Shown here: in pieces, positions 11,450 to 64,000 of the stretch | Layout: each line of letters begins with the position of its first letter | Numbering within the stretch: position 1 is the first letter of the stretch | NCBI RefSeq assembly: GCF_017814435.1 | Contig: NZ_JAGJCB010000003.1 | Span: 1 to 64,000, forward strand | DNA length: 64,000 nucleotides | Direction of reading: 5' to 3' | Source: Mariniflexile gromovii | GTDB lineage: Bacteria; Bacteroidota; Bacteroidia; Flavobacteriales; Flavobacteriaceae | Notes under the pieces: model-generated | Database searches by the model: none | Seen by the model: the letters and a program-made list of their open reading frames with translations, nothing else | What the model was told of the DNA's origin: nothing | Translations under genes and position numbers: made by a program

Positions 11450-13378
11450 TTAGTAATGCCACCTCACAAACGCCTCCATGGCTGCATAGTGCGATAGGCC
11501 CAATTCGTGATATAGATCGGCGGTTTCCTTGTTCCTGTCTTCGGCACGTTGCCAAAACTCCCTACTGTCGCTACCTTGAAATACCACGCCATCTTTTTGC
11601 GATTGGTGCTTGAAGATGCCTTTTCGTTTTTCCAGTACCTGGTCCGGCCCCATGGGAACGGCCATTTCAATTTCATCAATGCCCCATTCCTGCCATGCAC
11701 CCCTGTACAGCCAAACCCAGCAATCGTTCATGAACTTTTTGGGCTTTAATTGTTTTACGGCCTCGAAAATAGCGTCCAGACATACTTTATGGGTACCATG
11801 CGGATCTGCCAAATCGCCAGCCGCATATATTTGGTGCGGTTTGATTTTTTCTATTAGATCCATGGTAATCTGGATATCCTCTTTCCCCAAGGGTTTCTTT
11901 TCAATGGTGCCCGTTTCGTAGAATGGCAGTTCCATGAAATGGATCTGGCTATCGGGAAGGCCCACAAAATAGCATGTAGATTGGGCTTCCCCTTTTCTGA
12001 TAAGCCCTTTGATGTACCTTACCTCGGGAATATCTATTTCGCTCGCTTTTTTGTTCTTAAGAAACGTTTCGGCCTTTTTGTAAATGTTCTCAGCCTCTTT
12101 GTTCTCTATTCCAAATTTATCGTTGTAATCGCACACAAAGCTGGCAAAGCGCAGCGCTTCATCATCGGCAACGGCAATGTTTCCAGAGGTTTGGTAACCT
12201 ACATGTACTTCGTGCCCTTGTTCCTGCAAACGTTTAAAGGTGCCGCCCATGCTTATAATATCATCATCGGGATGCGGACTGAAGATCAGTACACGCTTTT
12301 TGGCAGGTTCGGCACGCTCCGGCCTTTTGCTATCATCCGCATTTGGCTTGCCTCCTGGCCACCCGGTAATGGTGTTCTGTAGTTTGTTGAATATTTTTAT
12401 GTTGATGTCGTAAGCTGGACCTGAATCGGCCAACAAATCGCTCATTCCGTTTTCAATATAATCGGCATCGGTAAGCATCAGAATAGGCTTTTTCAAATTC
12501 AGGGCCAATGATAATACCGCTTTTCTTATAAGTTTGTCCGTCCAAACAATTTTCTCTACCAACCATGGCGTGTTGATACGGGTGAGTTTTGAAGCTGCAG
12601 CCTGATCCAGTACAAAAGTGGCATTATTGTGCACTTGCAGATAGGATGCAGGTACCAAGTTGGTTACCGTGTCTTCCACCGAAGCTTTTATGATATTCGA
12701 TTTGCCTTCGCCCCAAGCCATAAGGATGACCCTTTTGGCTTCCATTATTTTCTTGACACCTAGGGTGATAGCCGTTCTGGGGGTGTTGTTCAATCCTGAG
12801 AAATCGCCGCTGGCGGCAACCCTTGTAATATGGTCCAGTGCCACCAATCTGGTTTTTGAGTTTTGTAACGACCCCGATTCGTTAAAACCGATATGCCCAT
12901 TGCCTCCAATACCGAGTATCTGCAAATCGATGCCTCCCAAAGCCTCAATTTTGGCTTCGTACTGGTTACAGTAATCTGAAATTTCCTCTTTGGGTAATTT
13001 TCCATCTGGGATATGGTAGTTTTCAGGCAATATATCTACATGGTTGAACAATTGTTCTTTCATAAAACGCACGTAGCTATTGATGGAATCTGGCTCCATA
13101 GGGTAGTATTCATCCAAGTTGAACGAAACGACGTTTTTGAAGCTCAGGCCTTCTTCTTTATGCAATCGGACCAATTCGGCATATAGTCCTTTTGGTGTAG
13201 ACCCTGTGGCCAAACCCAATATGCAAGGTTGTTTTTGGGCCTGTTTAACCCGTATTAAATCGGCAATTTCTTTGGCAACAGCTTTTGAAGCCATAGAGGA
13301 ATTTTCAAAAACTATGGTTCCTACGTTCTCAAATCTTTTTTCAAAGCCCGTTGCTTTGTCTATAGTGCTCTTTAACAT
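11450..13378 (-). CDS. nagB: Glucosamine-6-phosphate deaminase fused to a PIG-L/LmbE deacetylase-like domain
   Basis: I start the protein at 13378 (MLKSTIDKATGFEKRFE, 642 residues); the longer open frame would run into the upstream gene. Residues about 15-260 form the NagB domain, which converts glucosamine-6-P to fructose-6-P and ammonia. It shows LDEYYPM and LGIGGNGHIGFNES, containing the catalytic His and Glu. From about residue 365 (VLIFSPHPDDDIISMGG) a PIG-L/LmbE zinc deacetylase-like domain follows, with the HPDD metal motif and DPHGTHKV as a likely third ligand. I believe such fusions are common in Bacteroidota. The second domain's substrate is unclear; it might deacetylate GlcNAc-6-P, since no nagA is in the window. 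Confidence 0.92.
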   Translation of the reverse strand: MLKSTIDKATGFEKRFENVGTIVFENSSMASKAVAKEIADLIRVKQAQKQPCILGLATGSTPKGLYAELVRLHKEEGLSFKNVVSFNLDEYYPMEPDSINSYVRFMKEQLFNHVDILPENYHIPDGKLPKEEISDYCNQYEAKIEALGGIDLQILGIGGNGHIGFNESGSLQNSKTRLVALDHITRVAASGDFSGLNNTPRTAITLGVKKIMEAKRVILMAWGEGKSNIIKASVEDTVTNLVPASYLQVHNNATFVLDQAAASKLTRINTPWLVEKIVWTDKLIRKAVLSLALNLKKPILMLTDADYIENGMSDLLADSGPAYDINIKIFNKLQNTITGWPGGKPNADDSKRPERAEPAKKRVLIFSPHPDDDIISMGGTFKRLQEQGHEVHVGYQTSGNIAVADDEALRFASFVCDYNDKFGIENKEAENIYKKAETFLKNKKASEIDIPEVRYIKGLIRKGEAQSTCYFVGLPDSQIHFMELPFYETGTIEKKPLGKEDIQITMDLIEKIKPHQIYAAGDLADPHGTHKVCLDAIFEAVKQLKPKKFMNDCWVWLYRGAWQEWGIDEIEMAVPMGPDQVLEKRKGIFKHQSQKDGVVFQGSDSREFWQRAEDRNKETADLYHELGLSHYAAMEAFVRWHY

Positions 13379-13397
13379 TTTAGTTTTTTTTAATTTT

Positions 13398-14726
13398 TTA
13401 TTGTCTTGACCAACTTTTGTATTTATGTCCCCATACGGCAAAAAACAGGATCAATATATAGCAAGGGATCAATATCCAGTAACTGCTTGTTGATGCCGTG
13501 GCCAATGCGTCAACTTCGTTGAGTCCATTTGTGATAAGCTCGTGTTTGTTGGCATCTACCATTCTACCGTAAAGTGGAGGTATAATGGCACCACCCGAAA
13601 TGGCCATAATCAATAGCGCGGAACCCGTTTTTGTGAATTTACCCAAACCTTCTAGAGTCAATGGCCATACGGCAGGCCAAACCAGGGCGTTGGAAATGCC
13701 CAATGCCGCTACAAATAAAACAGAGGTAAACCCGGTTGTAACCAGTATGCATATGCTGAAAACAATGCCCAATACCGCACTGATTTTAAGTGCTGTGCCC
13801 TGCTTTAAATATTTGGGTATCAAAACAACGCCCAGGGCATAGGTGCATACCATGGCCAATAAGGTCAACGTGGTGAAAAACTTCGCATCGGCAGCAGGGA
13901 AGCCCAATGAAATGCCATAGGCAATGATGGTGTCGCCCGCTATAACTTCAGCACCCACATAAACGAATAGAGTAAGTACACCCAACCATAAATGCGGAAA
14001 TTGAAAAATACTGGTTTTTGCTGTGCTACCTTCTTTAGGTTCATCAGCTTCCGCTGCTTCCACATGTGGTAATGGGGCTTTTCTAATTAATAAACCTAAT
14101 ATAACTAATACAATGGCCATGATTAAATAAGGCATAAAAACGCTATCTGCCATGGTGTCCAACAGAACGCCTTTTTCTTCAACCGAGGCGGTTTCCAGTT
14201 GTTCCTTTACCTTGTCGATACCCGAAAGGAGCAGTGCGCCAAAGATCAACGAACCCAGTGCACCGGCCACTTTATTGGCTATACCCATAATGGCAATACG
14301 TTTGGCGCCACTTTCTATGGGGCCTAAAATGGTAATGTATGGATTGGCCGCGGTCTGCAACAGGGTCATACCGATACCTTGGATGAAAATACCTGTTAGG
14401 AACACCCAATAGGTCCTTGCTTCGGCCGCGGGGATAAAAACCAAGGCGCCTATGGCCATAATGATGAGCCCTAGGGACATGCCTTTTTTGTAGCCTATTT
14501 TATTTAAGATATAGGAAGCGGGCAACGCCATGACCACAAATGAAATATACGACGCTGAGGCCACCAAATACGATTGTGCATCGGTAAGCTCATTGATGGT
14601 TTTCATAAAGGGGATCAATGCACCGTTTATCCAGGTAACAAAACCGAATATGAAGAATAAACTCGCTATGATGATTATGGGAACTAAATTGTTCTTTGTG
14701 GGTGGTGCGGTTTGTGGTGCTGTCAT
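13398..14726 (-). CDS. nagP: Sugar MFS transporter, NagP/FucP type
   Basis: The 442-residue inner-membrane protein has about 12 hydrophobic segments. FIFGFVTWINGALIPFMK and LLQTAANPYITILGP are hallmarks of the FucP/GluP/NagP group of proton-coupled sugar transporters. The gene lies 19 bases upstream of the nagB-like start on the same strand, so GlcNAc is its most likely cargo. The run susC-susD-sulfatase-sulfatase-nagP-nagB places it in the glycan locus. Fucose or hexose transport cannot be excluded by sequence alone. Confidence 0.85.
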   Translation of the reverse strand: MTAPQTAPPTKNNLVPIIIIASLFFIFGFVTWINGALIPFMKTINELTDAQSYLVASASYISFVVMALPASYILNKIGYKKGMSLGLIIMAIGALVFIPAAEARTYWVFLTGIFIQGIGMTLLQTAANPYITILGPIESGAKRIAIMGIANKVAGALGSLIFGALLLSGIDKVKEQLETASVEEKGVLLDTMADSVFMPYLIMAIVLVILGLLIRKAPLPHVEAAEADEPKEGSTAKTSIFQFPHLWLGVLTLFVYVGAEVIAGDTIIAYGISLGFPAADAKFFTTLTLLAMVCTYALGVVLIPKYLKQGTALKISAVLGIVFSICILVTTGFTSVLFVAALGISNALVWPAVWPLTLEGLGKFTKTGSALLIMAISGGAIIPPLYGRMVDANKHELITNGLNEVDALATASTSSYWILIPCYILILFFAVWGHKYKSWSRQ

Positions 14727-14793: not shown

Positions 14794-16206
14794 TTAATTA
14801 TTTTTCATATTATATTCTAAACTGTCACACTTACTTCTCATGTTTTGAAGAACCTTTGAGTAATTGGGGTTGCTTTTTAAATTTTCTAATTGATCAGGAT
14901 CTTTTTGTAAATCGTGTAAATATTCATATGGTGGATTTTGTTCATAATAATTGACATAAACATATCTTTGCTCATGTATTCCAACATATTTAGGGAGTTT
15001 GTCATACTCCATCCTATGTTCAATAAGAAAATTGTCTCGCCATGCCTTAATTTTATCATTATTTAAAATGGGTAAAAGACTTTTTCCTTGATATCGTTGA
15101 GGTGTTGATATTCCAGCTATGTCAAGAATTGTTGCTGGAATATCAATATTAAGGGCAACTTTATCGGATGTTTTTACTGAATTCTTATTTGGTATTCGCG
15201 GGTCATAAATTATTAAAGGAACTCTTAGAGATTCATCATAGTGCGTCCATTTACCAGCAAACCCCCTATTACCCATGTAATAGCCATTATCCGCAGAATA
15301 AATGATTACGGTATTTTTATCTAAGCCTTTTTCTTTTAATGTGCTAATTACTCTATTCATTATATTATCGTATCCACTAATCATACGGAAATAAGCCCTC
15401 ATATTCGTTTGATATTTTTCTTCCGTATCCCATCTCCAGAAATAACGTTCCCTGTTTAGTGAATTCTTTAAAAAATCAGGATGATTATCATATATTTTAG
15501 GGTCAGATAATTTAGGTTTAGGCATTTCTATATTTTCATACATTTTAGCAACTGATTCTGGATACGGGTAATGCCCTATACCAGGACTTAAATTTTTATC
15601 AACAGCATGTACAGAATTAAAACTTATAGATAGACAAAAGGGTTTTTTGGAAGTTTGATTTTTTATAAATTCTACTGCTTCATCGCCACGAATTTCATCA
15701 GAGTGCTTCAAGGTGCCATCTGACATTGTTTCGAAGTAAGCAGCGTTTTTAAGAGAGGGTTTGAAATAATCAAACATTTCCGTAAGCATGCTATCTTGTA
15801 TTTCAATGTTTACTCCAAATTTTCCAGTAAAACCAGTAACATATCCGGATTTTTTTAATAAGTATGGATATGAATTTGTGATAAATTCTTTTTTTAGAGG
15901 TTTTTTTCCAAAAGTATAATTGTGTTTGGACTCATATAATCCTGTAAGAATGGAAGCTCTACTCGCAGCACAAATTGGCGTAGTAACAAATGCATTTGTA
16001 AATACAGTTCCGTTTTTAGCAAGTTGATCAATTGTTGGTGTTTTTACTATGGGATGACCTGCAGAAGAAATAACATCATTTCGTTGATCATCAACTAGGA
16101 TAAATAAAATATTTGGTTTCTCTTCTTTATAAATAGTGCTATTTTTACATCGACAGAATAGCATTATGATTAGTGAACAAATTAGTGTTTTTAATATATT
16201 TTTCAT
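14794..16206 (-). CDS. Family S1 sulfatase, lipoprotein (CAASR site)
   Basis: The 470-residue protein begins with a lipoprotein-type signal (IIMLFCRC; likely acylated Cys18 or Cys20), so it should be membrane-anchored. The catalytic Cys79 lies in C-A-A-S-R, the site converted to formylglycine. Metal ligands D39-D40 (ILVDDQRND) and SADNGYYMG with the following GKWTHYDESLRVP complete the active site. It hydrolyses a sulfate ester on a glycan; the position cannot be read from sequence. It pairs with the sulfatase gene 184 bases upstream, but its motif and middle region differ clearly from that gene, so the two likely act on different sulfates. Confidence 0.92.
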   Translation of the reverse strand: MKNILKTLICSLIIMLFCRCKNSTIYKEEKPNILFILVDDQRNDVISSAGHPIVKTPTIDQLAKNGTVFTNAFVTTPICAASRASILTGLYESKHNYTFGKKPLKKEFITNSYPYLLKKSGYVTGFTGKFGVNIEIQDSMLTEMFDYFKPSLKNAAYFETMSDGTLKHSDEIRGDEAVEFIKNQTSKKPFCLSISFNSVHAVDKNLSPGIGHYPYPESVAKMYENIEMPKPKLSDPKIYDNHPDFLKNSLNRERYFWRWDTEEKYQTNMRAYFRMISGYDNIMNRVISTLKEKGLDKNTVIIYSADNGYYMGNRGFAGKWTHYDESLRVPLIIYDPRIPNKNSVKTSDKVALNIDIPATILDIAGISTPQRYQGKSLLPILNNDKIKAWRDNFLIEHRMEYDKLPKYVGIHEQRYVYVNYYEQNPPYEYLHDLQKDPDQLENLKSNPNYSKVLQNMRSKCDSLEYNMKNN

Positions 16207-16390: not shown

Positions 16391-17818
16391 TTACCATTTA
16401 AAAGGAACAGTTCCTGTTGAATCTACAGCATGCCCCCACTTCTTTATGTATGTTTGTCCTGGTAAGAAATCATCATCAAGACGATTGAGTTCTTCCTTAA
16501 GTAATTTTTCTAAGTTTTTAGAAATGGTAATATAAGCGGAATTTCCTATTAGATTATTTAACTGGTAGGGGTCTGCAACATTATCGAAAAGCAACCATTC
16601 GCCATTTAAATCTTTAGCATACGTATGTGTCTTTGTAATAAGGCCTCTAAATTCTTTTCCTCCTATTTTTCTTTTCCATTGTCCAAAGGGCTGAACACAT
16701 GCAACGAGGGAGGCTTTTCTATAGTCTTCTCTTTTTTCAAGAATTACGTCAGTAATATTTTCACCGTCTAAATTGTTTGGTATATTTATACCAGACATTC
16801 CCAATAAAGTAGGCAATATATCTAAAGTGTTTAGGAGAAAATCACTCTTCTTCCCTTTTTTTCTTAATAATGCAGGGTATTTAATTATGAAAGGTACTTT
16901 AGCAGATTCTTCATAAATTTTTTGTTTTTTTTCTTCGCCATGACTATTAATCATATCTCCATGGTCTGAAGTAAAAACGAAAATGGTATTATCCTCAATA
17001 TTACTTCGCTTTAAAGCATCCTGTAATTGTTTTATGTAACTATCTAGAGCAGAGCAATGTGCGTAATATCCTTTCAATATGTTTTTTGTTTTTTCAGATA
17101 ATTCTCTGGGAACATTTGGTCTTAATTGTATATCAGTATTTTTATATAAATCCTGAAATTCTTTAGGTGCGGTTTGATATGGTGCATGAGGTGGTCCCCA
17201 AGCTAGCATTAAAGAAAAGGGAGTTTTATTTTTTGCTTGTTCTTCTATAAAAGCAATAGCATCTTTTGTTTGAGCTTCGGCATCGTAACCATCCCATTGT
17301 TGTAATTTGTCATCATTTCCCCAATAATTTGAATTGTTATAGCTATGGGAGCAGTTTAATACTTTCCAATAGTCAAATCCTTGTCGCCTTTCTTTTGGTA
17401 TATATGCAGAACGCTCATTGCCATCAAGATGCCATTTACCAATATAAGCAGTGTTGTATCCTTCTGCTTTGAATAGTTTTGCAAAACTATTGGAGTCTGG
17501 GTTAAGCCTAATATCATTCATAAACATGCCGTTTTTTAATGCGTACTGCCCTGTTAATAACATGGCTCTATAGGGAGTGCACACGGGACTAGTGGAAACG
17601 GCATTGGTAAAATACACGCCTTCTGATGCAAGTTTATCTAAATTTGGAGTTTTAACATCTGGATTGCCAGTGTATCCCATTGATTCTGCCCGCCATTGAT
17701 CAGCAAAAACATATACTATGTTAGGTTTCCTTGTGCTATCGTTGGTAGGTTTTTCTTCTCCCTTGTCACTACAAATATTGAATAAAGAGAAGCATAATAA
17801 ATAAACAATATTTTTCAT
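16391..17818 (-). CDS. Family S1 sulfatase (CTPYR site)
   Basis: The 475-residue protein has a short hydrophobic start ending in a possible lipobox (LFNIC, Cys16). The formylglycine site is C80-T-P-Y-R84. The first metal motif is VFADQWRAESMG (one Asp, D40, where many sulfatases have Asp-Asp), and the second is VFTSDHGDMINSHGE. It removes sulfate from a glycan outside the cytoplasm; the position is unknown. The gene lies downstream of susD beyond a hairpin that may reduce read-through, and 184 bases upstream of the next sulfatase gene. Confidence 0.92.
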   Translation of the reverse strand: MKNIVYLLCFSLFNICSDKGEEKPTNDSTRKPNIVYVFADQWRAESMGYTGNPDVKTPNLDKLASEGVYFTNAVSTSPVCTPYRAMLLTGQYALKNGMFMNDIRLNPDSNSFAKLFKAEGYNTAYIGKWHLDGNERSAYIPKERRQGFDYWKVLNCSHSYNNSNYWGNDDKLQQWDGYDAEAQTKDAIAFIEEQAKNKTPFSLMLAWGPPHAPYQTAPKEFQDLYKNTDIQLRPNVPRELSEKTKNILKGYYAHCSALDSYIKQLQDALKRSNIEDNTIFVFTSDHGDMINSHGEEKKQKIYEESAKVPFIIKYPALLRKKGKKSDFLLNTLDILPTLLGMSGINIPNNLDGENITDVILEKREDYRKASLVACVQPFGQWKRKIGGKEFRGLITKTHTYAKDLNGEWLLFDNVADPYQLNNLIGNSAYITISKNLEKLLKEELNRLDDDFLPGQTYIKKWGHAVDSTGTVPFKW

Positions 17819-18119: not shown

Positions 18120-19862
18120 TTATAAACCATCGTAACCTGGATTTTGTGGTAATAGGTTCGGGTTTAAAGTTAATTCTAATTGAGGTATTGCAAGCAAATA
18201 ATCTCTCTCAAGGTTAAAAAGATACCCATTCGGTAGTGACTCTTGGTAAGGGTCTAAATAACCATTGGCATCTAATTTTTGACCAGTTGCCCATCCTTTT
18301 CCTGTTTCGTAATAAGCCCCTCTAGGTCTATTTTTTTCGACACTAGTATCGGCCGCAAAAAGTTTATGAGCTCTCCAACGCATTAAATCATCTAACCTAA
18401 AACCTTCTCCCATTAATTCAACCATGCGCTCTCTTCTTATTTCTTGAAGCAATGGCGTAATGGAGTAGCCGTAATCTGGCCAGTTTGGATCTGTGAAACC
18501 AACAGCTAGTGTAAGCGCTGGCATAGCAACGCCTGTTCTAGAACGCAGTTTGTTTATAGAAAGATCTAAATCGGCTTGCGTAATAGTGCCCAATTCTGCT
18601 TTGGCTTCGGCATAAATAAGCAATGCTTCGGCATAACGCATCAAAATTTTTGCGGTATCTCTAGTTTGTGAGTTTGATGAAGCCACTATCTGAGGTACTC
18701 TATATTTTTGAGATTCATAGCCTCCAACACTTCCTACGTTAGTATTAAGTAAAGGACGTACAAATAGCGTGTTTGTACCGTTAACCGCCGTTGAAACGAT
18801 ATCACCCGGTACCATAACCGTAGCTGCAAGCCTTGGATCGCGGTTAGTTTCAATAGTGTTAAGCGATTGATCTCCTTGGTATAAAGAAGTGCTTACACCA
18901 ATAGGTTTTCCATCGTTACAAAGATAACTGCGTATTGCAAACCGTGTATAAGAACTCGCATTTGGCCATGATAGCTGTAGCGCATTGCCAAAAGTGCTGC
19001 CTAAGCCAAGAAAATCATATTGTCTCCAAAGTATAACTTCAGTATTTGTAGTTAAATTAGTTTGGTTAAATAAATTCCCGTAACTGGAATGAAGTGATCT
19101 TGTATTCCCATCAATCAATGCTTTTGAAGCATCGGCAGCCTGCTGTAAGTAAGTAGTGCCTGTGGAGCCTGCTACCCCAAAAACGGTACCATTATGGTAT
19201 TTTTCCCAAGTACCCTCATAAAGTGCTACGGTGGCTTTAAGTAATTGAGCAGCTTCTTTACTAACACGGGCACCAACCGCAGATTTAGGTTTTAGTACCG
19301 CTATAGCCTTATCTAAATCGGCAAGTATAAAATCGGCTACCTTGTTTCTTGGTTCTCTTGCTCTAAACAAAGCTTCTCTATCAGTATTTGTAAAATAAGC
19401 ATCATAAATTGGTAAAGCACCATAATCTTTCAATAAATCGAAATAGTAGTAGGCTCTAAAAAAATAGCCTTCGCCTATGTATTGGTTAAGATCTATCTCC
19501 AAGCCTTCTGCCTTTGCAGCATTGGATACAAAATAATTCGCTTTTCTTACTTTGCTCCAATTCCAAATAGATGTACTAGCATTTGTAGGAACACCTGTTT
19601 GTCCATTTAATCTGCTATTAAAGCCCGTAGCCATGGATACATCGGTGCCATTGTCTGGATTTGGCGAATTACCAACGCTTACTCCCTGCCAACCAGGTAA
19701 ATCTTGATAGAAGGAATTGGAATACAATTCTAAATCACTCACTGTTTTCCAGAATTCGGGTTCAGAAATTTCATCTAGAGGGGTTCTTTCTAGAATATCA
19801 TCATTACACGAAACAAACAAGTGCATCGAGCATATTACTATTAAATAAATTATTTTTTTCAT
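18120..19862 (-). CDS. susD: SusD/RagB-family glycan-binding lipoprotein
   Basis: The 580-residue protein is a surface lipoprotein (signal MKKIIYLIVICSMHLFVSC, Cys19 as acylation site). DILERTPLDEISEPEFWKT is the usual SusD start, and the internal helices with tetratricopeptide-like repeats (EGYFFRAYYYFDLLKDYG) match the family. The C-terminal part with LLQEIRRERMVELMGEGFRLDDLMRW is a strong SusD signature. It caps the SusC barrel and delivers glycan fragments. It follows susC by 18 bases. It is the only SusD-like protein in the window. Confidence 0.97.
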   Translation of the reverse strand: MKKIIYLIVICSMHLFVSCNDDILERTPLDEISEPEFWKTVSDLELYSNSFYQDLPGWQGVSVGNSPNPDNGTDVSMATGFNSRLNGQTGVPTNASTSIWNWSKVRKANYFVSNAAKAEGLEIDLNQYIGEGYFFRAYYYFDLLKDYGALPIYDAYFTNTDREALFRAREPRNKVADFILADLDKAIAVLKPKSAVGARVSKEAAQLLKATVALYEGTWEKYHNGTVFGVAGSTGTTYLQQAADASKALIDGNTRSLHSSYGNLFNQTNLTTNTEVILWRQYDFLGLGSTFGNALQLSWPNASSYTRFAIRSYLCNDGKPIGVSTSLYQGDQSLNTIETNRDPRLAATVMVPGDIVSTAVNGTNTLFVRPLLNTNVGSVGGYESQKYRVPQIVASSNSQTRDTAKILMRYAEALLIYAEAKAELGTITQADLDLSINKLRSRTGVAMPALTLAVGFTDPNWPDYGYSITPLLQEIRRERMVELMGEGFRLDDLMRWRAHKLFAADTSVEKNRPRGAYYETGKGWATGQKLDANGYLDPYQESLPNGYLFNLERDYLLAIPQLELTLNPNLLPQNPGYDGL

Positions 19863-22800: not shown

Positions 22801-23156
22801 GAACTTTGGTTATTTACAGTAACTTCTTTGGAAACAAAGCCAATGTAAGAAACTGTTAATGTTGCCTTTTGGCTTGAAACTCTCATGGTGAATTTACCAT
22901 CAAAATCTGCCTGAACTCCATTAAACGTACCCTTTTCAAGAATATTAGCGCCAGCAAGTGGTTGTCCGTTACTATCGGTAACCATACCTGTTATTTGAAG
23001 TTGTTGTGCACTTTTGTCTGTTTTATTTTCAGCTTCAATAGGGTTTGTATTTACAGCAAAAACACTGGCAAAGCACAAAAAAATCAAAGAATTTAAAATG
23101 GTTATGAGTAGTTTTTTCTTTAAGCCTGAAAAAGTACTGTTTATTTTTTTTTTCAT
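19881..23156 (-). CDS. susC: SusC/RagA-family TonB-dependent outer-membrane transporter
   Basis: The 1091-residue protein has a signal peptide, then a carboxypeptidase regulatory-like domain (LQITGMVTDSNGQPLAGANI, about residues 52-130), then ALNEVVVVGYGTRKRTTVTSAV at the start of the plug domain. A long beta-barrel follows, ending in aromatic-rich ISTGLNISF with a terminal Phe, as expected for outer-membrane insertion. With SusD it imports oligosaccharides using TonB energy. It is the first gene of the minus-strand run that leads to nagP and nagB, which suggests that the cargo contains GlcNAc. Confidence 0.97.
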   Translation of the reverse strand: MKKKINSTFSGLKKKLLITILNSLIFLCFASVFAVNTNPIEAENKTDKSAQQLQITGMVTDSNGQPLAGANILEKGTFNGVQADFDGKFTMRVSSQKATLTVSYIGFVSKEVTVNNQSSIAITLTEDVSALNEVVVVGYGTRKRTTVTSAVSQVGSEVFENRPVANATLALQGAVGNLVITTTANGGEPGAQPNINIRGLVTSSGDLGSVGNSSPLILIDGAEMDISQINPEDIETVTVLKDAASASIYGARAAGGAIIITTKSGKDMKGGMKVSYTNNFSISQPTIWPEQASAIDFAYTMNDTASNTGLSPYYTEEELGWIQQNMANPGSAPTLIPNSAGNSWDQSNFGLGATGSTNWKDFLFSSWSLRSKHDINFRGGDEKLNYYISAGTYNEDGLLATTTDTYSRHNLDAKIASKPNKWLSFELLTKATLAKLDYPWDQQFGRGRVFDVLSKLKPTLPTVDPNNGEPLANASYPSWDYNRESNVNNQISILPRITIEPIKDLLINLQYNYRRVNNKQVFTSAEQQWTRPDGTLGYITARSQTLVRPSLDTNEYLSPNLFATYTKSVKGHNFDVTAGYQNEQYNVFNMNANAYNLLTDNVQSLSSAVGVITASDNISHWSTESVFGRFGYNYKEKYIGRVTYRRDGSSRFEPGNRLTGLPSFELGYNIAKENFWPIKDISMFKLRATQGSLGNQNVGNYLYISTLPISNGTFLFNGARQFFTNPPNLTSQNLTWETVKTKDLGIDILALKNRLGFTFDWYRSDTNNLASEGETLPAVLGTNQPLVNAGTIRVQGWEAELTWKQSLGDFNYNIRAVLSDYKQTVLEYPNPTNGINNNFYAGGDLGAIWGLTWEGWFQTAEEATERNLVINQRYVHNSTFGVGDAKYADLNGDGFINNGDGTLNDTGDFRVIGNSTPRYQYGITLGASWKGIDFNMFIQGVGKRDVSLSTHQRFRGPAQGPLHANVLVEHLDYFRPLDTTSPLGPNLDAYFPTPYAQNPGNNNRNYRFNTDHFLQNGAYTRLKTMQIGFTIPKVVTEKYKIDRIRIFVTGENLLTISKLMFYDPETVPGEFGSAYSYPLSKVISTGLNISF

Positions 23157-45440: not shown

Positions 45441-45441
45441 A

Positions 45442-54047: not shown

Positions 54048-54104
54048 ATTGCTTGACAATTAAGCTTTAAAAAAGGTAATTAGATGGAAATAATAAGAAA
54101 TAAA

Positions 54105-56398: not shown

Positions 56399-57760
56399 AT
56401 GAAGCAAATACTAGGTGTCATATTCATTTTATTAAGTTGGAATCTTTCGGTTTTTGGACAAACTAAGGACTCAAAACCGAATGTGATCATCTTTTTTACA
56501 GACGATCAAGGCTATCAAGATGTGGGTTGTTTTGGTTCGCCGTTAATCAAAACACCAAACCTTGATAAAATGGCAGAAGATGGTATAAAATTCACCGATT
56601 TTTATGCAGCTTCCTCCGTATGTTCGCCGTCAAGAGCTGCGCTTTTAACGGGATGTTATCCACCTCGTGTCGGTGTTCCTAAAGTGTTTTGGCCAAATTT
56701 ACCTGGGGGTTTATCAAATCAGGAATTAACCATAGCCGATATGCTTAAAACTAAAAACTATGCCGCCGCCTGCATTGGCAAATGGCATTTAGGTGATGAA
56801 GCGCAGTATTTACCTACCATGCAGGGTTTCGATACTTATTACGGCATTCCGTTTAGTAATGATATGTCGGTGAATCCAAAATCTAAAGTGTCAAAAAATA
56901 TTGTTTTTAGAGAAGGCATGACCCTCGATAGTTTACGTGAGAAAAAATGGCGCGGAAGAAAAGTGCCTTTAATGAAACAAGACGAGGTCATCGAATATCC
57001 GGTTGACCAATCGACCATAACGCAAAGATATACTTCAGAAGCTGTTGATTTTATTAAGAAAAATAAAGACAATCCGTTCTTTTTGTATGTAGCGCACACC
57101 ATGCCGCACGTGCCGCTATATGCCTCTGAAAATTTTAAAGGGAAAAGTGCTCGTGGAATGTATGGCGATGCGGTTGAAGAATTAGATTGGAGTATGGGCG
57201 AAATTTTGAAAACATTAGAATCACTAGGAATTGATGAAAATACCTTGGTGATTTTTACTTCAGATAATGGTCCTTGGAATTTAGAAAACGAACAAGGCGG
57301 TAGCGCTTTACCACTGCGAGGATTCAAAAATGAAACCTTAGAAGGCGGTATGCGAGTTCCCATGATTGCGCAGTGGAAAGGGAAAATAAAACCAGGTAGT
57401 ATTTCTAATGAAGTAGCATCGACTATTGATTTCTTGCCAACCATTGCCTACCTAACAGACGCACAACTTTCTGAAAAACCGATTGATGGAAAAAATATTT
57501 GGCACTTGCTTTCAGGAACCAAAAAAGGGAAATCACCGCATAGAAAAAAAGGATTTTATTATTACAAAGAATCCACGTTAGAAGCGGTGAGACAAGGCGA
57601 TTGGAAATTACGAATTATTGATGGTGAGGTAGCTTTGTATAATTTAAAAAATGATATATCCGAAAGTAACAATGTAGCAGATGCCAATCCGAAGCTCGTA
57701 AAAAAGTTACGTAAAATGATGACAGATTTTGATATGGACTTAAAACAATATATGCATTAA
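56399..57760 (+). CDS. Family S1 sulfatase, secreted (CSPSR site)
   Basis: The 453-residue protein has a type I signal peptide (ILGVIFILLSWNLSVFGQ) rather than a lipobox, so it is probably periplasmic. The active site is C75-S-P-S-R; metal residues are D35-D36 (FFTDDQGYQDVG) and FTSDNGPWNLENEQGG, followed by LEGGMRVPMIAQWKGKI. VGVPKVFWPNLPGGLSNQE is a typical insert of arylsulfatase A-like members. It begins 2 bases after the GH95 stop and is followed by another sulfatase gene after 21 bases. Confidence 0.93.
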   Translation: MKQILGVIFILLSWNLSVFGQTKDSKPNVIIFFTDDQGYQDVGCFGSPLIKTPNLDKMAEDGIKFTDFYAASSVCSPSRAALLTGCYPPRVGVPKVFWPNLPGGLSNQELTIADMLKTKNYAAACIGKWHLGDEAQYLPTMQGFDTYYGIPFSNDMSVNPKSKVSKNIVFREGMTLDSLREKKWRGRKVPLMKQDEVIEYPVDQSTITQRYTSEAVDFIKKNKDNPFFLYVAHTMPHVPLYASENFKGKSARGMYGDAVEELDWSMGEILKTLESLGIDENTLVIFTSDNGPWNLENEQGGSALPLRGFKNETLEGGMRVPMIAQWKGKIKPGSISNEVASTIDFLPTIAYLTDAQLSEKPIDGKNIWHLLSGTKKGKSPHRKKGFYYYKESTLEAVRQGDWKLRIIDGEVALYNLKNDISESNNVADANPKLVKKLRKMMTDFDMDLKQYMH

Positions 57761-57781: not shown

Positions 57782-59332
57782 ATGTCGCAAATAACATACA
57801 TAATTCTCTTATCACTATTAACGGTTTTTAATTCATTTGCCCAAGATGGAAAAAAGTCGCAGCCTAATATCATTTACATTTTGGCTGATGATTTAGGGTA
57901 TGGCGATGTGTCGGTGTATAACGAAAATTCTAAAATACAAACCCCTCATATTGATCAGTTAGCATCAAACGGTGTGATGTTTACCGATGCGCATACCAGT
58001 TCAGCTGTTTGTACCCCTACACGTTATGGTATCATTACAGGCCGTTACAATTGGAGAACAACTTTAAAAGAAGGTGTTTTAAGTGGGTATTCTAAATCTT
58101 TAATTAAAGAAGAACGTGTAACCGTTGCCGATTTATTAAAAAACCATGGTTACCAAACAGCTTTTATTGGAAAATGGCATATGGGTTGGGATTGGACTAT
58201 TGAAAATGAAGGCTCCATGGATATTGATAAATTAAATGCACGACCAGAAGTCGATTTTACAAAACCTATTAAAAACGGACCTCAACCTCATGGTTTCGAT
58301 TATAGTTTCGGATTTTGTGGCTCTTTAGATATGCCTCCTTATGTTTGGGTAGAAAATGGGATGCCAACAAGTGTCCCTACAAAAACAACCAAAGGAAAAA
58401 CCAAACAAGGCACTTTGCGCGAAGGGTTAACGGCAGACGATTTTGTACATGAAGAAGCGCTGCCGGAAATCACAAAACGCACCGTAAGTTATATTGATAA
58501 AAACGCCAATCAAGACAAACCATTTTTTGTATATATGCCACTTCCGGCGCCACATACACCCATTCTTCCTACCGAAGAATTTCAAGGAAAAAGTGGTTTA
58601 GATAATCCTTATGCCGATTTTGTAATTATGGTCGATTGGGTAGTTGGTGAAGTCACAAAAGCGCTTGAAGCAAATGGTATTTCAGAAAACACCTTAATTG
58701 TTTTTACCAGCGATAACGGTTGTTCTCCAACAGCAAACTTTGAACAATTAAAATCGAAAGGACACAACCCGAGTTATGAATATAGAGGGACTAAGTCAGA
58801 TATTTATGATGGCGGTCATCGCGTACCTTATATCATGACTTGGAAAGGACATATCCAACCAAATAAAACCAATCAAATGGTTTGTACCACCGATTTTTTT
58901 GCCACCGTGGCAGATGTTATTGGAGCGACTTATGCTGATGATGTTGCCGAAGACAGCTACAGCCATCTTGCAGTTACAAACATAAAATCACGTTTACCTT
59001 TAAGGAAAAGCATAGTATACCATTCGGTTGATGGCACATTTGCGTATCAAAAAGGCGATTACAAAGTGGTGTTTGGCCCTGGTTCGGGCGGCTGGAGCTA
59101 TCCTAATAAAAATACGAAGAAAGAAATATATGATGCCTTACCTAAAGTTCAGCTTTATAATGTTAAAGATGATGTCGCTGAAGCGAACAATTTGGAAGCT
59201 AAAAATCCTAAATTGATTAAAAAATATCGTAAAGAATTGCTGAAAATTATTAATGAAGGACGTAGCACCAAAGGGAAAAAACTAAGCAATGATAAGGTTG
59301 ATGCGTGGCCTCAATTAGAAGCATTAAAATAA
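57782..59332 (+). CDS. Family S1 sulfatase, secreted (CTPTR site)
   Basis: The 516-residue protein has a type I signal peptide (YIILLSLLTVFNSFAQ). The active site is C77-T-P-T-R in SSAVCTPTRYGIITGRYNWR, a block that I associate with galactose- or GalNAc-6-sulfatases of family S1; the subfamily is uncertain. Metal residues are D36-D37 (ILADDLGYGD) and FTSDNGCSPTANF. It forms the third plus-strand pair with the previous gene, yet both inserts and substrate loops differ. The second PA14-GH3 gene follows after 28 bases. Confidence 0.93.
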   Translation: MSQITYIILLSLLTVFNSFAQDGKKSQPNIIYILADDLGYGDVSVYNENSKIQTPHIDQLASNGVMFTDAHTSSAVCTPTRYGIITGRYNWRTTLKEGVLSGYSKSLIKEERVTVADLLKNHGYQTAFIGKWHMGWDWTIENEGSMDIDKLNARPEVDFTKPIKNGPQPHGFDYSFGFCGSLDMPPYVWVENGMPTSVPTKTTKGKTKQGTLREGLTADDFVHEEALPEITKRTVSYIDKNANQDKPFFVYMPLPAPHTPILPTEEFQGKSGLDNPYADFVIMVDWVVGEVTKALEANGISENTLIVFTSDNGCSPTANFEQLKSKGHNPSYEYRGTKSDIYDGGHRVPYIMTWKGHIQPNKTNQMVCTTDFFATVADVIGATYADDVAEDSYSHLAVTNIKSRLPLRKSIVYHSVDGTFAYQKGDYKVVFGPGSGGWSYPNKNTKKEIYDALPKVQLYNVKDDVAEANNLEAKNPKLIKKYRKELLKIINEGRSTKGKKLSNDKVDAWPQLEALK

Positions 59333-59360: not shown

Positions 59361-62051
59361 ATGGGAAGAGTTAATAGCATAAAAAGTGGGTTGATAATAA
59401 TGTTTTTAGGAGGGATTCTTATGGGGTCATTTGCCTTTTCTATCAAAAAAGATCCGCCTTATAAAAACCCAAAATTACCAGTACAAGAACGTGTTAAAGA
59501 TTTAATGAGCCGAATGACGCTAGAAGAAAAGTTCTGGCAAATGTTTATGATTCCGGGCGATTTAAGTATCGGAAAAGATAAATTGAAGCATGGTATTTTC
59601 GGTTTTCAAATCTCTTCTAAAGGAAAAAATGATAACGCTGCAGAACAAATCATGGACTATGGTTCTACAGGTACTGCAGAGAATATGGCTAAGGAAATTA
59701 ACGAGCTTCAAAAATTCTTTATAAAAGAAACCCGCTTAGGAATTCCAATCATCCCTTTTAATGAAGCCTTGCATGGTTTGGCGCGCGATGGGGCAACCAC
59801 CTATCCACAAGCCATTGCTTTGGCCGCCACTTGGGATACGACCTTGGTTGGTAACGTAGCACGTGCTATTACTAAAGAAACCAAAACACGAGGCATTCGT
59901 CAAATTTTGTCGCCCGTATTAAATATTGCCCGCGATGTGCGTTGGGGTAGAACCGAAGAAACCTATGGTGAAGATCCATTTTTAACAACTCAAATGGCGG
60001 TTTCTTACATCAGTCAGTTTGAAAAAGAGGGCATCATCACATCTCCAAAACATTTCGTTGCCAATGTGGGAGATGGAGGTAGAGATAGTTACCCAATCCA
60101 TTTTAACGAGCGTTTACTTGAAGAGGTTTATTTCCCTGCATTCAAGGCTGTATTTCAAAAAGCAGGCGCACGATCGGTTATGACCTCCTATAATTCGTTA
60201 GACGGCACACCTTGTACATCAAACGAATGGTTACTCACCAAAAAATTAAAAGATGAATGGGGCTTTAAAGGCTTCGTGATTTCAGATGCGGGTGCTGTTG
60301 GTGGCGCTAACGTCTTGCACTTTACAGCAGCGAATTATGCCGAAGCTACCGAAGATGCTGTAGAAGCAGGATTGGATGTGTTGTTTCAAACCAATTACAA
60401 TCACTACCCATTATTTTGGGAAGCCTATGAAAAAGGGATGGTCGATATCAAAGCGATTGATGAGGCGGTAAGACGCATTTTAACCATTAAGTTCGAGTTA
60501 GGCTTATTCGAAAATCCTTATGTGGATGCTAAAGAAGCGGCAGTTTGGAACGGACATAAAACGCATCGGGAATTGGCAAGAGTTACAGCAGCTAAATCGA
60601 TGGTGTTGTTGAAAAACGAAAACAAAGTCCTTCCGTTAAGTAAGTCCGTTAAAAAAATGGCACTTATTGGTTACGATGCTAAAGCTGCCCGTTTGGGTGG
60701 TTATAGTGGCCCTGGAAACAATGTGGTTTCTATGTTGGAAGGGGTTTCAAATAAAATAGGAAAAGAAAATATTATCTACGCTCCTGGTGTTGCTTTTAAA
60801 GAAGAAAATTATCAGGTAGTGGCGTCGTCATTTTTATCAACTATGGAAGATGGTAAAAAAGTTGAAGGCTTAAGTGGGGCGTATTTTGATAATATTAAGT
60901 TAAGCGGACAACCAAAAGTGGAGCGCACAGACAAGAAATTACAGTTTGGATGGACCCTTTTTTCACCTCATGAAAGTTTGCCATACGATTGGTTTTCGGT
61001 ACGATGGACCGGAAAATTAAAAGCGCCAAAAACAGGTGTTTTCAATATTGGTATAGAAGGAAATGATGGATACCGTATGTATTTAGATGGTAAACTACTT
61101 ATTGATAATTGGCAAAAACAATCGTATAACACGGTTTTAAAACCCTTTTCATTTGAAGCAGGAAAAGAATACGATATTAAAATTGAGTTTTTCGAATCGG
61201 CTGGAAATGCGAAATTCAAATTGGTTTGGGATGCGACACATCAAAACGAATGGGAACAACAAATTGCCGAAGCTGTTGAAGCTGCAAAAAAAAGTGAAGT
61301 AGCCGTAGTTGTTGCAGGTATTCACGAAGGTGAGTTTCAAGACCGCGCTTTATTGAGTTTACCTGGGCATCAAGAAGCATTAATTAAAGCGGTAGCCAAA
61401 ACAGGAAAACCAACCGTAGTAGTATTGGTTGGTGGTAGCGCTATCACAATGGCAAACTGGATAAACGATGTGGATGGTATTATTATGGCGTGGTATTCTG
61501 GTGAAAATGGTGGTAACGGTTTTGCTGATGTTCTTTTTGGGGATGAAAACCCTGCAGGTAGATTGCCAGTTACGTTTCCTGTTGATGCGGCGCAATGTCC
61601 GTTATATTACAACAATAAGCCTACGGGTAGAGGCGATAATTATCATAACTTAACGGGGCAACCCTTGTTTCCGTTTGGTTACGGATTGAGTTACACGTCT
61701 TTTGATTATTCAGATTTGGAATTCAGTAAAAATAACATCAATCCAGATGAAACAATCACCGTTTCATTTACTGTAAAAAACACAGGCTCCGTAGATGGCG
61801 ATGAAGTGGTTCAGCTCTATATACGAGATGAATTAGCTTCGGTGTCCAGACCAATTAAAGAATTAAAAGGCTTTCAACGTATTAGATTAAAAGCTGGTGA
61901 AACTAAAAAACTAAGTTTTCAATTAGGACCAGAGGAATTGTCCATGCTTGATAAAGATTTAAAAAGATTGGTAGAAGCAGGCGATTTCAGAATCATGATA
62001 GGAGCTTCATCAAAAGACATTCGTTTAAGAGGAATTTTAACTGTAAAATAA
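59361..62051 (+). CDS. GH3 beta-glycosidase with PA14 domain (second copy)
   Basis: The 896-residue protein has a hydrophobic N-terminal signal or anchor (GLIIMFLGGILMGSFAF). The GH3 barrel shows RLGIPIIPFNEALHGLARDG and the nucleophile Asp309 in GFVISDAGAVGG. A PA14 domain (about 490-630; GLSGAYFDNIKLSGQPKVER) and a C-terminal fibronectin III-like domain follow. The architecture equals that of the GH3 at 48517, but the barrel sequences differ widely, so a different beta-linked sugar is likely. Its stop codon overlaps the start of the next GH30 gene by one base (TAATG). Confidence 0.92.
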   Translation: MGRVNSIKSGLIIMFLGGILMGSFAFSIKKDPPYKNPKLPVQERVKDLMSRMTLEEKFWQMFMIPGDLSIGKDKLKHGIFGFQISSKGKNDNAAEQIMDYGSTGTAENMAKEINELQKFFIKETRLGIPIIPFNEALHGLARDGATTYPQAIALAATWDTTLVGNVARAITKETKTRGIRQILSPVLNIARDVRWGRTEETYGEDPFLTTQMAVSYISQFEKEGIITSPKHFVANVGDGGRDSYPIHFNERLLEEVYFPAFKAVFQKAGARSVMTSYNSLDGTPCTSNEWLLTKKLKDEWGFKGFVISDAGAVGGANVLHFTAANYAEATEDAVEAGLDVLFQTNYNHYPLFWEAYEKGMVDIKAIDEAVRRILTIKFELGLFENPYVDAKEAAVWNGHKTHRELARVTAAKSMVLLKNENKVLPLSKSVKKMALIGYDAKAARLGGYSGPGNNVVSMLEGVSNKIGKENIIYAPGVAFKEENYQVVASSFLSTMEDGKKVEGLSGAYFDNIKLSGQPKVERTDKKLQFGWTLFSPHESLPYDWFSVRWTGKLKAPKTGVFNIGIEGNDGYRMYLDGKLLIDNWQKQSYNTVLKPFSFEAGKEYDIKIEFFESAGNAKFKLVWDATHQNEWEQQIAEAVEAAKKSEVAVVVAGIHEGEFQDRALLSLPGHQEALIKAVAKTGKPTVVVLVGGSAITMANWINDVDGIIMAWYSGENGGNGFADVLFGDENPAGRLPVTFPVDAAQCPLYYNNKPTGRGDNYHNLTGQPLFPFGYGLSYTSFDYSDLEFSKNNINPDETITVSFTVKNTGSVDGDEVVQLYIRDELASVSRPIKELKGFQRIRLKAGETKKLSFQLGPEELSMLDKDLKRLVEAGDFRIMIGASSKDIRLRGILTVK

Positions 62052-63484
62052 TGACAATGAAGATATTAAAATTAACAATATGCGCACTTCTGTTAGTCTT
62101 AACAGCAAACGCACAAAAACCAAAAGTAAGTTGGGTTAGTTCAACCAACAACGAAGTTTGGGTTACTAAAAAATACAAACCTTCAAAAAGCAAAAAGGCT
62201 TCAGATATTTCTATTGCTATCGATACTAAAAAACGAGAACAAAAAATAGATGGTTTTGGTGGCTGTTTCAATGAGTTGGGATGGGAAGCTTTAGGAATGG
62301 TGACTTCAGAAGAAAAACAACAAATTTTAAACGATTTATTCAGTCAGGAAACAGGGTGTAAATTCAATATATGCAGAATGCCCATTGGTGCGAACGATTA
62401 TGCGGTAGATTGGTACAGCCATAACGAAACGGAAGGTGATTTTGCCATGGAAAATTTCTCCATAGACCGTGATAAAAAACGACTCATTCCCTACATAAAA
62501 GAAGCACAAAAGATAAATTCAGACATCCAAATTTGGGCGTCACCTTGGTGTCCGCCATCATGGATGAAACACAGCAAACATTACGCTTGTAAATCCAATC
62601 CGGAATTTAATGATTTACCTGAAGAATGGAGTTCTACCGAAGAATTAGTATCACGTTTCATCACAGAACCAAAATATTTTGAAGCTTACGCCTTGTATTT
62701 TTCAAAGTTTGTAAAAGCTTATGAAAAAGAAGGCATCGATATTTCAGCGGTTCACGTTCAAAACGAATACAATTCAGCACAAAATTTCCCATCATGTGTG
62801 TGGAAGCCGCAAGATTTAGGAATTTTCATTTCAGATTATTTAGGACCTAAATTCAAAGCAGATAATTTAGATGCTGAAATATGGTTGGGTACGGTTGAGC
62901 GTCCACAAATAGAGCGAGTTTCAGATGTAATAGAATACAAAAACGCCAAAGATTATATTAAAGGTGTCGGTTTTCAATGGGCAGGAAAAGGCGCAATAGA
63001 AGCGGTGCATGCTAAATATCCAGAGGTGCAATTAATGCAAACGGAGACCGAATGTGGCGATGGTTCTAACGATTGGAAAGCAGCCGAATACACCTTCAAC
63101 TTAATGAAACATTATTTTGAAAATGGCGCCAATTCATACATGTACTGGAATATGGTTTTAGATGAAACCGGGAAAAGTCAATGGGGTTGGAAGCAAAATT
63201 CCATGATTTCTATTGATAGCAAAACCAAAGCCATTCGCTACAATCCGGAGTTTTATTTAATGAAGCATTTAAGTGCTTTTGTAGCACCGGGTTCTGTAAA
63301 ATTAGCTTCATCTGGTGATGACGACCAAGCCATCGTTTTTTATAATGAAGCTAGCAAACAAGTGGTTGTTCTTGCTTATAACAACAGTGAAGAAAACCGC
63401 GACATCCAATTAAATATTAATGACAAGCAAATTAAGGTCATGGTTGATCCCAAGTCGTTTAATACCATTTCAGTGAGTTTATAG
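62051..63484 (+). CDS. GH30 glycoside hydrolase (second copy)
   Basis: The 477-residue protein has a signal peptide (MKILKLTICALLLVLTANAQ, after a two-residue lead). KIDGFGGCFNELGWEAL opens the barrel; WASPWCPPSWMKHSK, the acid/base Glu239 in VHVQNEYNS and the nucleophile Glu332 in MQTETECGDG are present. It shares the fold with the GH30 at 47102 but differs in the loops around the active site. Translation is probably coupled to the GH3 gene through the one-base overlap. The substrate is not evident from sequence. Confidence 0.92.
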   Translation: MTMKILKLTICALLLVLTANAQKPKVSWVSSTNNEVWVTKKYKPSKSKKASDISIAIDTKKREQKIDGFGGCFNELGWEALGMVTSEEKQQILNDLFSQETGCKFNICRMPIGANDYAVDWYSHNETEGDFAMENFSIDRDKKRLIPYIKEAQKINSDIQIWASPWCPPSWMKHSKHYACKSNPEFNDLPEEWSSTEELVSRFITEPKYFEAYALYFSKFVKAYEKEGIDISAVHVQNEYNSAQNFPSCVWKPQDLGIFISDYLGPKFKADNLDAEIWLGTVERPQIERVSDVIEYKNAKDYIKGVGFQWAGKGAIEAVHAKYPEVQLMQTETECGDGSNDWKAAEYTFNLMKHYFENGANSYMYWNMVLDETGKSQWGWKQNSMISIDSKTKAIRYNPEFYLMKHLSAFVAPGSVKLASSGDDDQAIVFYNEASKQVVVLAYNNSEENRDIQLNINDKQIKVMVDPKSFNTISVSL

Positions 63485-63498
63485 TTAAAGAAAAAGTA

Positions 63499-64000
63499 AT
63501 GAAACGAAGAGAATTTGTAAAATATTTAGGCGCTGGTTCTTTATTTATAGGAGCCACTTCTTGTGGAGCCACACGTATTTTTGGAAGTAGTTATGATGAA
63601 GACATTTGTAGAGAAGCATGGAAAAAGTTAGCTAATAAAGGCGAAGCTTTTGATTATGTAAGTCCAGAACCTAAACGCCCAAAGGTATTGCTGTATGGCG
63701 ATTCTATTTCAATAGGGTATACACCAACGGTTCGAAAGGAATTAGAAGGAAAAGCCAATGTTTACAGAATTTTTAATAATGGCGGATCCAGCGATACGTT
63801 TATTCCTAAAATGGAGAAGTTAAAACAAACCATGTTTCAACCGTATTTAAAAGGTGGTTGGGATTTTAAATGGGATGTGATTCATTTTAATGTAGGCCTG
63901 CACGATTTAAAATATCTTAAAAATGGAAAACTGGATGCAGTAAACGGCAAACAAGTAAACAGTATTGAAGTATACAAAGAAAATTTAGAGAAGATTTGTC
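63499..64000 (+). CDS. SGNH/GDSL hydrolase, 5' part (cut by window edge)
   Basis: The frame is open from ATG at 63499 to the end of the window (167 codons). The N-terminus KRREFVKYLGAGSLFIGATS followed by Cys22 looks like a twin-arginine lipoprotein signal. The first SGNH block is VLLYGDSISIGYTP, with the catalytic Ser in GDS; a second block around IFNNGGSSDT carries the Gly, and FNVGLHDLKY resembles the Asn block. Such enzymes usually remove acetyl or other ester groups from glycans. The C-terminal part with the Asp-His pair is outside the window. It begins 14 bases after the GH30 stop. Confidence 0.85.
   Translation, partial: MKRREFVKYLGAGSLFIGATSCGATRIFGSSYDEDICREAWKKLANKGEAFDYVSPEPKRPKVLLYGDSISIGYTPTVRKELEGKANVYRIFNNGGSSDTFIPKMEKLKQTMFQPYLKGGWDFKWDVIHFNVGLHDLKYLKNGKLDAVNGKQVNSIEVYKENLEKIC

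Follow-up and report, generated by a model that had tools for sequence, protein, structure and literature searches.

The first 64,000 nucleotides of a 393,718-base contig (NZ_JAGJCB010000003.1) from the 4.28-Mb genome of Mariniflexile gromovii, referred to here as the window, open a cluster of 40 genes that we regard, with moderate confidence, as a modular polysaccharide-utilisation locus (PUL) for a sulfated, fucosylated glycan of the N-linked kind containing N-acetylhexosamine (HexNAc) and mannose. The cluster occupies contig positions 11,450 to ~81,653 (~70 kb) and encodes 10 sulfatases, four GH92, four GH20, two GH29, one GH95, two GH3, two GH30 and one GH130 enzyme, together with a PNGase F-type amidase and a glycosylasparaginase. 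A preliminary description of the window had proposed a combination of N-glycan enzymes with sulfatases and fucosidases, and the comparison supports it as one evolutionary unit: in 10 composite loci, which come from no fewer than six genera, a GH130 gene and an SSF-family sodium:solute symporter stand beside the sulfatase block, and the gene order is conserved. Chance does not account for the two halves lying side by side, and the cluster is modular.

Conservation across Flavobacteriaceae

We compared 397 genomes of the Flavobacteriaceae, the family of M. gromovii, and added M. fucanivorans DSM 18792, which belongs to the same genus, and Flavobacterium sp. UMI-01. Members of the genus come from sea water, sea urchin and oyster, among other sources (PMC11278836). 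G-numbers denote the compared genomes; G000 is the window genome and G001 (M. fucanivorans) to G005 are from its genus. The composite loci comprise the window, seven others from the 397 genomes and the two added genomes. Using sulfatase d (Sulf-d) as the marker of the block, we found matches at an E-value of 1e-120 in 15 of the 397 genomes, 11 of them at ≥64% identity, and all 11 carry Sulf-d, GH29-1, sulfatase e and GH95 in the same order. GH130 and the symporter SSF-1 lie within the stretch read in eight of these (G000, G005, G126, G325, G338, G351, G177 and G233; six genera). Four weaker Sulf-d matches (G242, G345, G211 and G229; 47–50% identity) were excluded from the counts. None of them has sulfatase e and GH95 at ≥45%, G345 ending at a contig end; G242 holds counterparts of Sulf-d, GH29-1, GH3-1 and GH30-1 at 50–54%. 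Among 395 genomes of the phylum the same search returned the window genome only, a result of little weight, since the 20 others listed were all from the same family, a further 374 are not listed and known relatives were missed.

Gene order was scored from GH92-1 onwards in 12 relatives, with best matches at ≥48% identity and 10–22 steps per locus. All scored steps were collinear except in G338 (15/17) and G233 (13/14), and 20,000 random gene orders per locus, drawn without regard to common descent, never reached the observed number. In M. fucanivorans the cluster stands at the same place, collinear and 72–97% identical, and lacks sulfatases a, b, f, h and j, GH30-1, GH20-1, GH20-2, the GDSL esterase, the S9/esterase and a 555-amino-acid protein. 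A third species of the genus (G005) is collinear from GH20-1 to GH92-4 at another genomic place, away from the xyl/kdtA site described below; missing here are the PNGase, GH3-1, GH30-1, the GDSL esterase and sulfatases a, b, f, h and j. The GH92-1 gene of G338 is broken up into reading frames of 537 and 148 amino acids.

The PNGase was also traced on its own. The PNGase F domain PF09112 was matched in 68 of the 397 genomes; strong matches (E ≤2.8e-45) numbered 41 in 38 genomes, the window's included. Around the 40 others, taking 20 kb on each side, at least one sulfatase was found in 10 neighbourhoods and at least four in three (G126, G325 and G338), which have the gene order of the window. 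The remaining 30 without a sulfatase within 20 kb are an upper bound; 11 of the 40 neighbourhoods end at contig ends, and in G244 and G395 a sulfatase lies ~24 kb from the PNGase. In loci L016–L020 (Yeosuana, Lutimonas and three Maribacter) and L021–L024 the PNGase is present and no sulfatase was matched in up to 21 kb.

Seven loci have a SusC that is 48–63% identical to the window's, and each of them carries the sulfatase block (G005, G001, G325, G240, G016, G233 and G126). The best SusC of PNGase loci without sulfatase reaches 38% over a partial alignment, and G018 and G248, with two sulfatases each, are intermediate at 40%. In the loci examined, SusC of the window type accompanies the sulfatase block with the single exception of G216, and import specificity thus appears mostly to track sulfation. 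Between species of the genus the SusC/D pair is 50–64% identical (55 and 50% for SusC and SusD of M. fucanivorans) versus ~71–97% for the surrounding enzymes, as if it had been exchanged or were under fast selection.

Composition of the two halves

Protein families were assigned by Pfam scans of all 40 proteins, a subset of which was also scored with NCBIfam models. Every family named in the preliminary description was recovered between 11,450 and 64,000, and its count of eight sulfatases in the window is correct (Table 1). The right end that it had set at 64,000 is an artefact of the window: genes on the same strand run on to ~81,653, adding sulfatases, GH20 and GH92 genes (two of each) and one GH29. 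From 63.5 to 81.65 kb the order is GDSL, GH20-3, sulfatase i, GH92-3, GH29-2, S9/esterase, sulfatase j, GH20-4, the 555-amino-acid protein and GH92-4, so that the second half itself holds two GH92 and two GH20 genes. All 30 genes from 29,781 to 81,653 lie on the plus strand, separated by a median of 13 bp; the widest intervals measure 331 bp (behind the PNGase), 224 bp and 137 bp. The 555-amino-acid protein (contig ~77,769–79,436) has no Pfam or NCBIfam match and is 85% identical in G005; it is possibly a new enzyme family.

Judged by gene content, the first half has the set of an N-glycan locus, with families for release (PNGase and glycosylasparaginase), arm trimming (GH92 and GH20) and cleavage of Man-GlcNAc (GH130) present together. 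The SusC/SusD pair adjoins genes for carbohydrate-active enzymes, as in SusC/D-type PULs. The amidase contains both PNGase F domains and matches PDB entries 3ks7 and 4qhb at ~1e-111. Its D87 and E273, which we take to be D60 and E206 of PNGase F, are conserved in 44/44 aligned PNGases. The position distinguishing types I and II, presumably E118 of PNGase F, is Asp in 36 of the 44 (392–442 amino acids, the window's enzyme included) and Gly in eight (557–568 amino acids), a split that bears out this placement. Group 1 enzymes have Asp or Glu and not Gly at the E118 position and are not expected to act on glycans with core α-1,3-fucose (PMC9522356). Going by this residue, the window PNGase should reject glycans with core α-1,3-fucose, a point against plant-type cores as substrate. 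A separate N-glycan locus in G004 has a PNGase resembling type II (Gly at this position) and a core of LytTR, histidine kinase, GH92, SSF, GH130, CBM9, GHL10 and glycosylasparaginase genes like that of the window.

The Asparaginase_2 protein had been called a Tat-exported glycosylasparaginase. The PDB ranking upholds the enzyme type, the best match being the glycosylasparaginase 3ljq at 2.4e-123 and isoaspartyl peptidases following only at ~1e-34. A twin-arginine stretch, SGRRKFIKK, is visible at the N-terminus as read directly from the sequence. An HDTI motif, which we take to be a feature of the flavobacterial enzyme type, is seen as well. The CBM9 and GHL10-type genes recur side by side in N-glycan core modules; an AlphaFold model of the GHL10 protein, built on three sequences, reached a mean pLDDT of only 58.6.

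All 10 sulfatases carry the cysteine-type active-site motif C-x-P/A-x-R. Sulfatases c, d, e, g, i and j were searched against the PDB, and subfamilies are named here by the nearest PDB chain rather than by SulfAtlas. The nearest solved relatives of sulfatase c are 7p24 (622 bits) and 5g2v (552 bits), a mucin-desulfating sulfatase and a GlcNAc-6-sulfatase, versus 332 bits for the L-galactose-6-sulfatase 7lha. GlcNAc-6-sulfatases of subfamily S1_11, to which sulfatase c would belong, have a His/Asp/Arg triad and a hydrophobic pocket for the N-acetyl group (PMC10154612). Sulfatase i is S1_15-like, a subfamily with activity on 6S-Gal/GalNAc (PMC10154612), and sulfatase j has no close solved relative in the PDB. 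The genome contains 41 PF00884 matches (two being fragmentary) and FGE-type genes able to activate such sulfatases (PF03781, five matches, best E-value 2.1e-80); activation of the anSME type was considered and set aside, as it gave a weak match below cut-off only. GH20 enzymes that remove 6-sulfo-GlcNAc whole have been reported (PMC11659886), and the four GH20 of the cluster could include this type.

Table 1. Features of the cluster within the window, with best supporting matches (E-values unless bits are given)
Feature	Position	Strand	Evidence and remarks
NagB + PIG-L fusion (glucosamine-6-phosphate deaminase-like)	11450..13441	-	PF01182 7.8e-24, PF02585 1.1e-15; NF002557 1070 bits, over cut-off
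NagP-like MFS transporter	13398..14726	-	PF07690 9.7e-26; NF046060 NagP 398 bits, below cut-off 625
Sulfatase a	14794..16206	-	PF00884 3.7e-53; lacking at this position in G001 and G005
Sulfatase b	16391..17818	-	PF00884 2e-59; lacking at this position in G001 and G005
SusD	18120..19862	-	PF07980 1.9e-39
SusC, TonB-dependent transporter	19881..23156	-	TIGR04056 790 bits, over cut-off
GH20-1 β-hexosaminidase + F5/8-type domain	23894..26272	+	PF00728 5.7e-122
GH20-2 β-hexosaminidase	26292..27914	+	PF00728 1.4e-121
LytTR response regulator	27956..28669	-	PF00072, PF04397
LytS-type histidine kinase	28711..29769	-	PF06580 9.8e-23
GH92-1 α-mannosidase	29781..32141	+	PF07971 2e-176
SSF-family sodium:solute symporter (SSF-1)	32162..34039	+	PF00474 7e-27; adjoins GH130 in composite and N-glycan-only loci
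GH130, proposed Man-GlcNAc phosphorylase	34264..35229	+	PF04041 2e-69; no signal peptide visible
CBM9 protein	35238..36308	+	PF06452 6.6e-12; lipoprotein-like N-terminus
GHL10-type protein	36286..37428	+	PF02638 7.4e-11
Glycosylasparaginase (Asparaginase_2)	37448..38458	+	PDB 3ljq 2.4e-123; twin-arginine N-terminus
GH92-2 α-mannosidase	38526..40748	+	PF07971 3.6e-159
PNGase F-type amidase, group 1	40745..41935	+	PF09112 2.2e-59, PF09113 2e-52; PDB 3ks7 2.2e-111; D87, D194, E273
Perfect 11-bp hairpin, possible terminator	42054..42089	+	fold z -4.0; no T run; terminator scan without match
Sulfatase c, GlcNAc-6-sulfatase-like	42267..43895	+	PDB 7p24 1.1e-185, 5g2v 1.7e-164
Sulfatase d (Sulf-d), marker of block	43926..45440	+	PF00884 1.2e-49; best PDB 1.6e-44, none close
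GH29-1 α-L-fucosidase	45355..47094	+	PF01120 2.3e-81
GH30-1	47102..48499	+	PF02055 3.9e-36
GH3-1 + PA14, β-xylosidase-like	48517..51102	+	PDB 7zb3 β-xylosidase 2.4e-129
Sulfatase e, L-Gal-6-sulfatase-like	51107..52702	+	PDB 7lha 3.8e-124
Sulfatase f	52650..54047	+	PF00884 7.2e-64
GH95 α-L-fucosidase or galactosidase	54084..56396	+	PF22124 6.3e-173
Sulfatase g	56399..57760	+	PF00884 1.6e-60; arylsulfatase A best in PDB, 3.6e-77
Sulfatase h	57782..59332	+	PF00884 3.4e-54; 40% identical to sulfatase i
GH3-2 + PA14	59361..62051	+	PF00933 6.1e-60
GH30-2	62051..63484	+	PF02055 1.1e-38; PDB 5ngk glucosylceramidase 9.1e-40
GDSL esterase	63499..64000	+	window edge cuts gene; true end contig 64,287

Two features at the left and right borders belong to the genus as a whole. 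The NagB fusion is present in 6/6 genomes of the genus, so the left end is best seen as a recruited or shared module. On the right follow a GntR regulator, xylulokinase, xylose isomerase, an SSF symporter and then kdtA. XylA was found in 6/6 genomes, four of which do not have the cluster at that site, and in G002, G003 and G005 the xyl genes stand beside kdtA with the cluster absent from there; we therefore treat the xyl operon as genus backbone rather than as a demonstrated part of the cluster. The adjoining operon, complete as it is, was for the same reasons rejected as evidence for xylose as a target, the operon being genus-wide and G005 having its cluster elsewhere. From within the cluster, the similarity of GH3-1 to β-xylosidases in the PDB is a hint towards the 'perhaps xylosylated' substrate of the preliminary description. 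A transposase fragment (DDE_Tnp_1; window 1–621) with which the contig begins is perhaps the cause of the assembly break.

In M. fucanivorans (G001:C5:284932-285087) and G325 (C2:117317-117472) a protein of ~830–880 amino acids with a partial N-glycanase_N match lies between LytTR and SusC, where the window has GH20-1 and GH20-2; further long proteins with such partial matches turn up in the family-wide PF09112 search.

Proposed pathway and alternative explanations

In the pathway that we propose, the SusC/D pair, which accompanies the sulfatase block, would import an anionic glycan or glycopeptide. Exo-sulfatases, one of them GlcNAc-6-sulfatase-like, and the GH29 and GH95 fucosidases would uncap the antennae; the four GH20 and four GH92 would trim the arms, and GH3 and GH30 may take off β-linked decorations, the linkages being suggested by family membership. 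The group 1 PNGase F, to judge from family and residues, would free glycans lacking core α-1,3-fucose, and the glycosylasparaginase would clear GlcNAc-Asn stubs. Man-GlcNAc could then reach the cytoplasm via the SSF symporter and be split there by GH130, with GlcNAc entering through the NagP-like carrier and passing to the NagB fusion. General Pfam scans reported no GH2, GH35, GH42 or GH33 domain in the 40 cluster proteins, which fits antennae ending in HexNAc and not in galactose or sialic acid. The LytS/LytTR pair is likely the regulator.

The most serious alternative, which we nevertheless consider unlikely, is that two loci with two substrates adjoin: a standard N-glycan PUL (29.8–41.9 kb) and a locus for a sulfated fucose-, mannose- and HexNAc-containing glycan (42.3–81.6 kb, with SusC/D), the substrates coming from the same organisms, algae or animals. 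Several observations speak for it and to that extent weigh against a single N-glycan PUL. In three of the 11 Sulf-d genomes, from three further genera, the block occurs with no N-glycan core nearby (G240 and G016, with an own SusC/D, and G216, whose SusC is only 35% identical to the window's); PF09112 was matched in none of the three, and a core elsewhere in them was not searched for. The 30 of 40 PNGase neighbourhoods free of sulfatases point the same way. In addition, a strong hairpin in the 331-bp gap between PNGase and sulfatase c separates the two halves: 71 bases fold at -19.1 kcal/mol (z -4.0), equalled by one of 200 shuffles. In the same gap of M. fucanivorans and UMI-01 the inverted repeats are AT-rich and imperfect or short. 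A sigma-70 and terminator scan of this gap found nothing beyond chance, and the Bacteroidota promoter pattern gave no signal (five matches versus 6.9 expected). The window genome likely makes two transcripts, the second half having its own. Against two independent loci stand the 10 composite loci, spread over six or more genera and in one case located at a different genomic place, and G233, where the core is cut down to GH130-SSF-GH92-1 directly beside sulfatase c; moreover, a single SusC/D pair serves both halves in the window cluster.

Other findings also count against a dedicated N-glycan PUL. The PNGase is present in six of the 10 composite loci and absent from four (G005, G351, G177 and G233) and is therefore not the defining part of the cluster. 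No SusC is visible in G338, G351, G177 and UMI-01, where the stretches read end before it. GH130 scored under the cut-off of all three NCBIfam models matched, and no surface endo-enzyme domain (GH18 or GH85) was reported in the cluster. The sulfated, fucosylated target of the preliminary description is borne out in part only: sulfatase c is nearest to GlcNAc-6-sulfatases, but sulfatase e is nearest to an L-galactose-6-sulfatase, which is unexpected for a typical N-glycan. GH29, GH95, GH3 and GH30 combined with sulfatases would also fit a fucose-containing sulfated polysaccharide (FCSP; PMC6298971). Finally, sulfated N-glycans of oyster carry their sulfate on galactose (PMC10301044), and the cluster has no galactosidase family for that.

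Rather improbable, in our view, is a locus for sulfated, mucin-like O-glycans of marine animals. In gut Bacteroides, mucin glycans are substrates of S1_11 and S1_15 sulfatases (PMC10154612), and the authors of a study on M. litorale predicted mucin-rich substrates for a GH92-rich PUL of that species, possibly a relative of this cluster (PMC11278836). Yet four GH92, the PNGase and the glycosylasparaginase are N-glycan enzymes, and the scans reported neither a GH2/GH35 galactosidase nor a sialidase domain. Least credible is a diatom-type PUL, with GH92 and sulfatases, for sulfated α-mannan or glucuronomannan: sulfatase-rich GH92 PULs are known in Polaribacter, Formosa and relatives (PMC6298971, PMC6794258) and enzymes of one such PUL degrade C6-sulfated α-1,3-mannan (PMC13063451), but that four-enzyme pathway leaves four GH20, two GH29, GH95, PNGase F, glycosylasparaginase and GH130 without a task, and GH2, GH88 and GH43 of such PULs were not reported in the 40 proteins (GH195 was not searched for).

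A sulfated, fucosylated N-linked glycan thus remains the reading that we favour. Its extension to a class of hybrid PULs that keep their gene order across at least six flavobacterial genera and devote sulfatases and fucosidases to N-glycans is put forward tentatively and with some doubt. If true, sulfated, fucosylated, HexNAc-ended (LacdiNAc-like) N-glycans would be a regular marine nutrient, sulfation would set the specificity of SusC/D import, and the N-glycan core pathway would be a shared back end. Bacteria with the cluster could then be recognised as marine consumers of sulfated glycoproteins. Sulfated N-glycans are difficult to detect by mass spectrometry (PMC10301044), and the 10 sulfatases and the fucosidases would provide a ready set for their analysis.

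Comparison with known systems

The preliminary description knew of no system of exactly this composition. This agrees with the open literature, where titles and abstract openings (subscription papers and preprints being outside this scope) yielded no locus combining PNGase and sulfatases and no bacterial N-glycan desulfation; close relatives have been described, however (PMC6298971, PMC6794258). Breakdown of N-glycans by gut Bacteroides (PMC9522356, PMC10154615) shares the logic of group 1 PNGase, GH92, GH20, GH29, GH3 and GH130; in PMC10154615 no sulfatase step is described, 'sulfat' occurring twice and in reference titles only. PULs for FCSP have GH29, GH95, GH3, GH30 and sulfatases in common with the cluster, whereas the relevant passages of PMC6298971 do not mention GH20, GH92, PNGase or glycosylasparaginase for such PULs.

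Closest are the GH92-rich PULs of marine Bacteroidota. The sulfatase-free ones (PMC6794258) share GH92, GH130, GH20 and sometimes CBM9; they include GH18 and no sulfatases, whereas our cluster adds 10 sulfatases, GH29/GH95, GH3/GH30 and PNGase F. Those of type A (PMC6298971, PMC6794258) contain three to four GH92, up to six sulfatases and GH3 and extend over ~87 kb in one Polaribacter. With four GH92 and 10 sulfatases our cluster shows the multiple GH92 and many sulfatases of this type, without GH2 and GH88 in the Pfam scans. Type A PULs and the PUL for diatom sulfated mannan (PMC13063451) carry GH2, GH43, GH88 or GH195; the window cluster has instead four GH20, fucosidases, PNGase, glycosylasparaginase and GH130. 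Judged by its gene families, it is a hybrid in which the sulfatase-free GH92/GH130/GH20 type is joined to a sulfatase–fucosidase block with its own GH20 and GH92: the parts are of known kinds, and their conserved combination is unusual.

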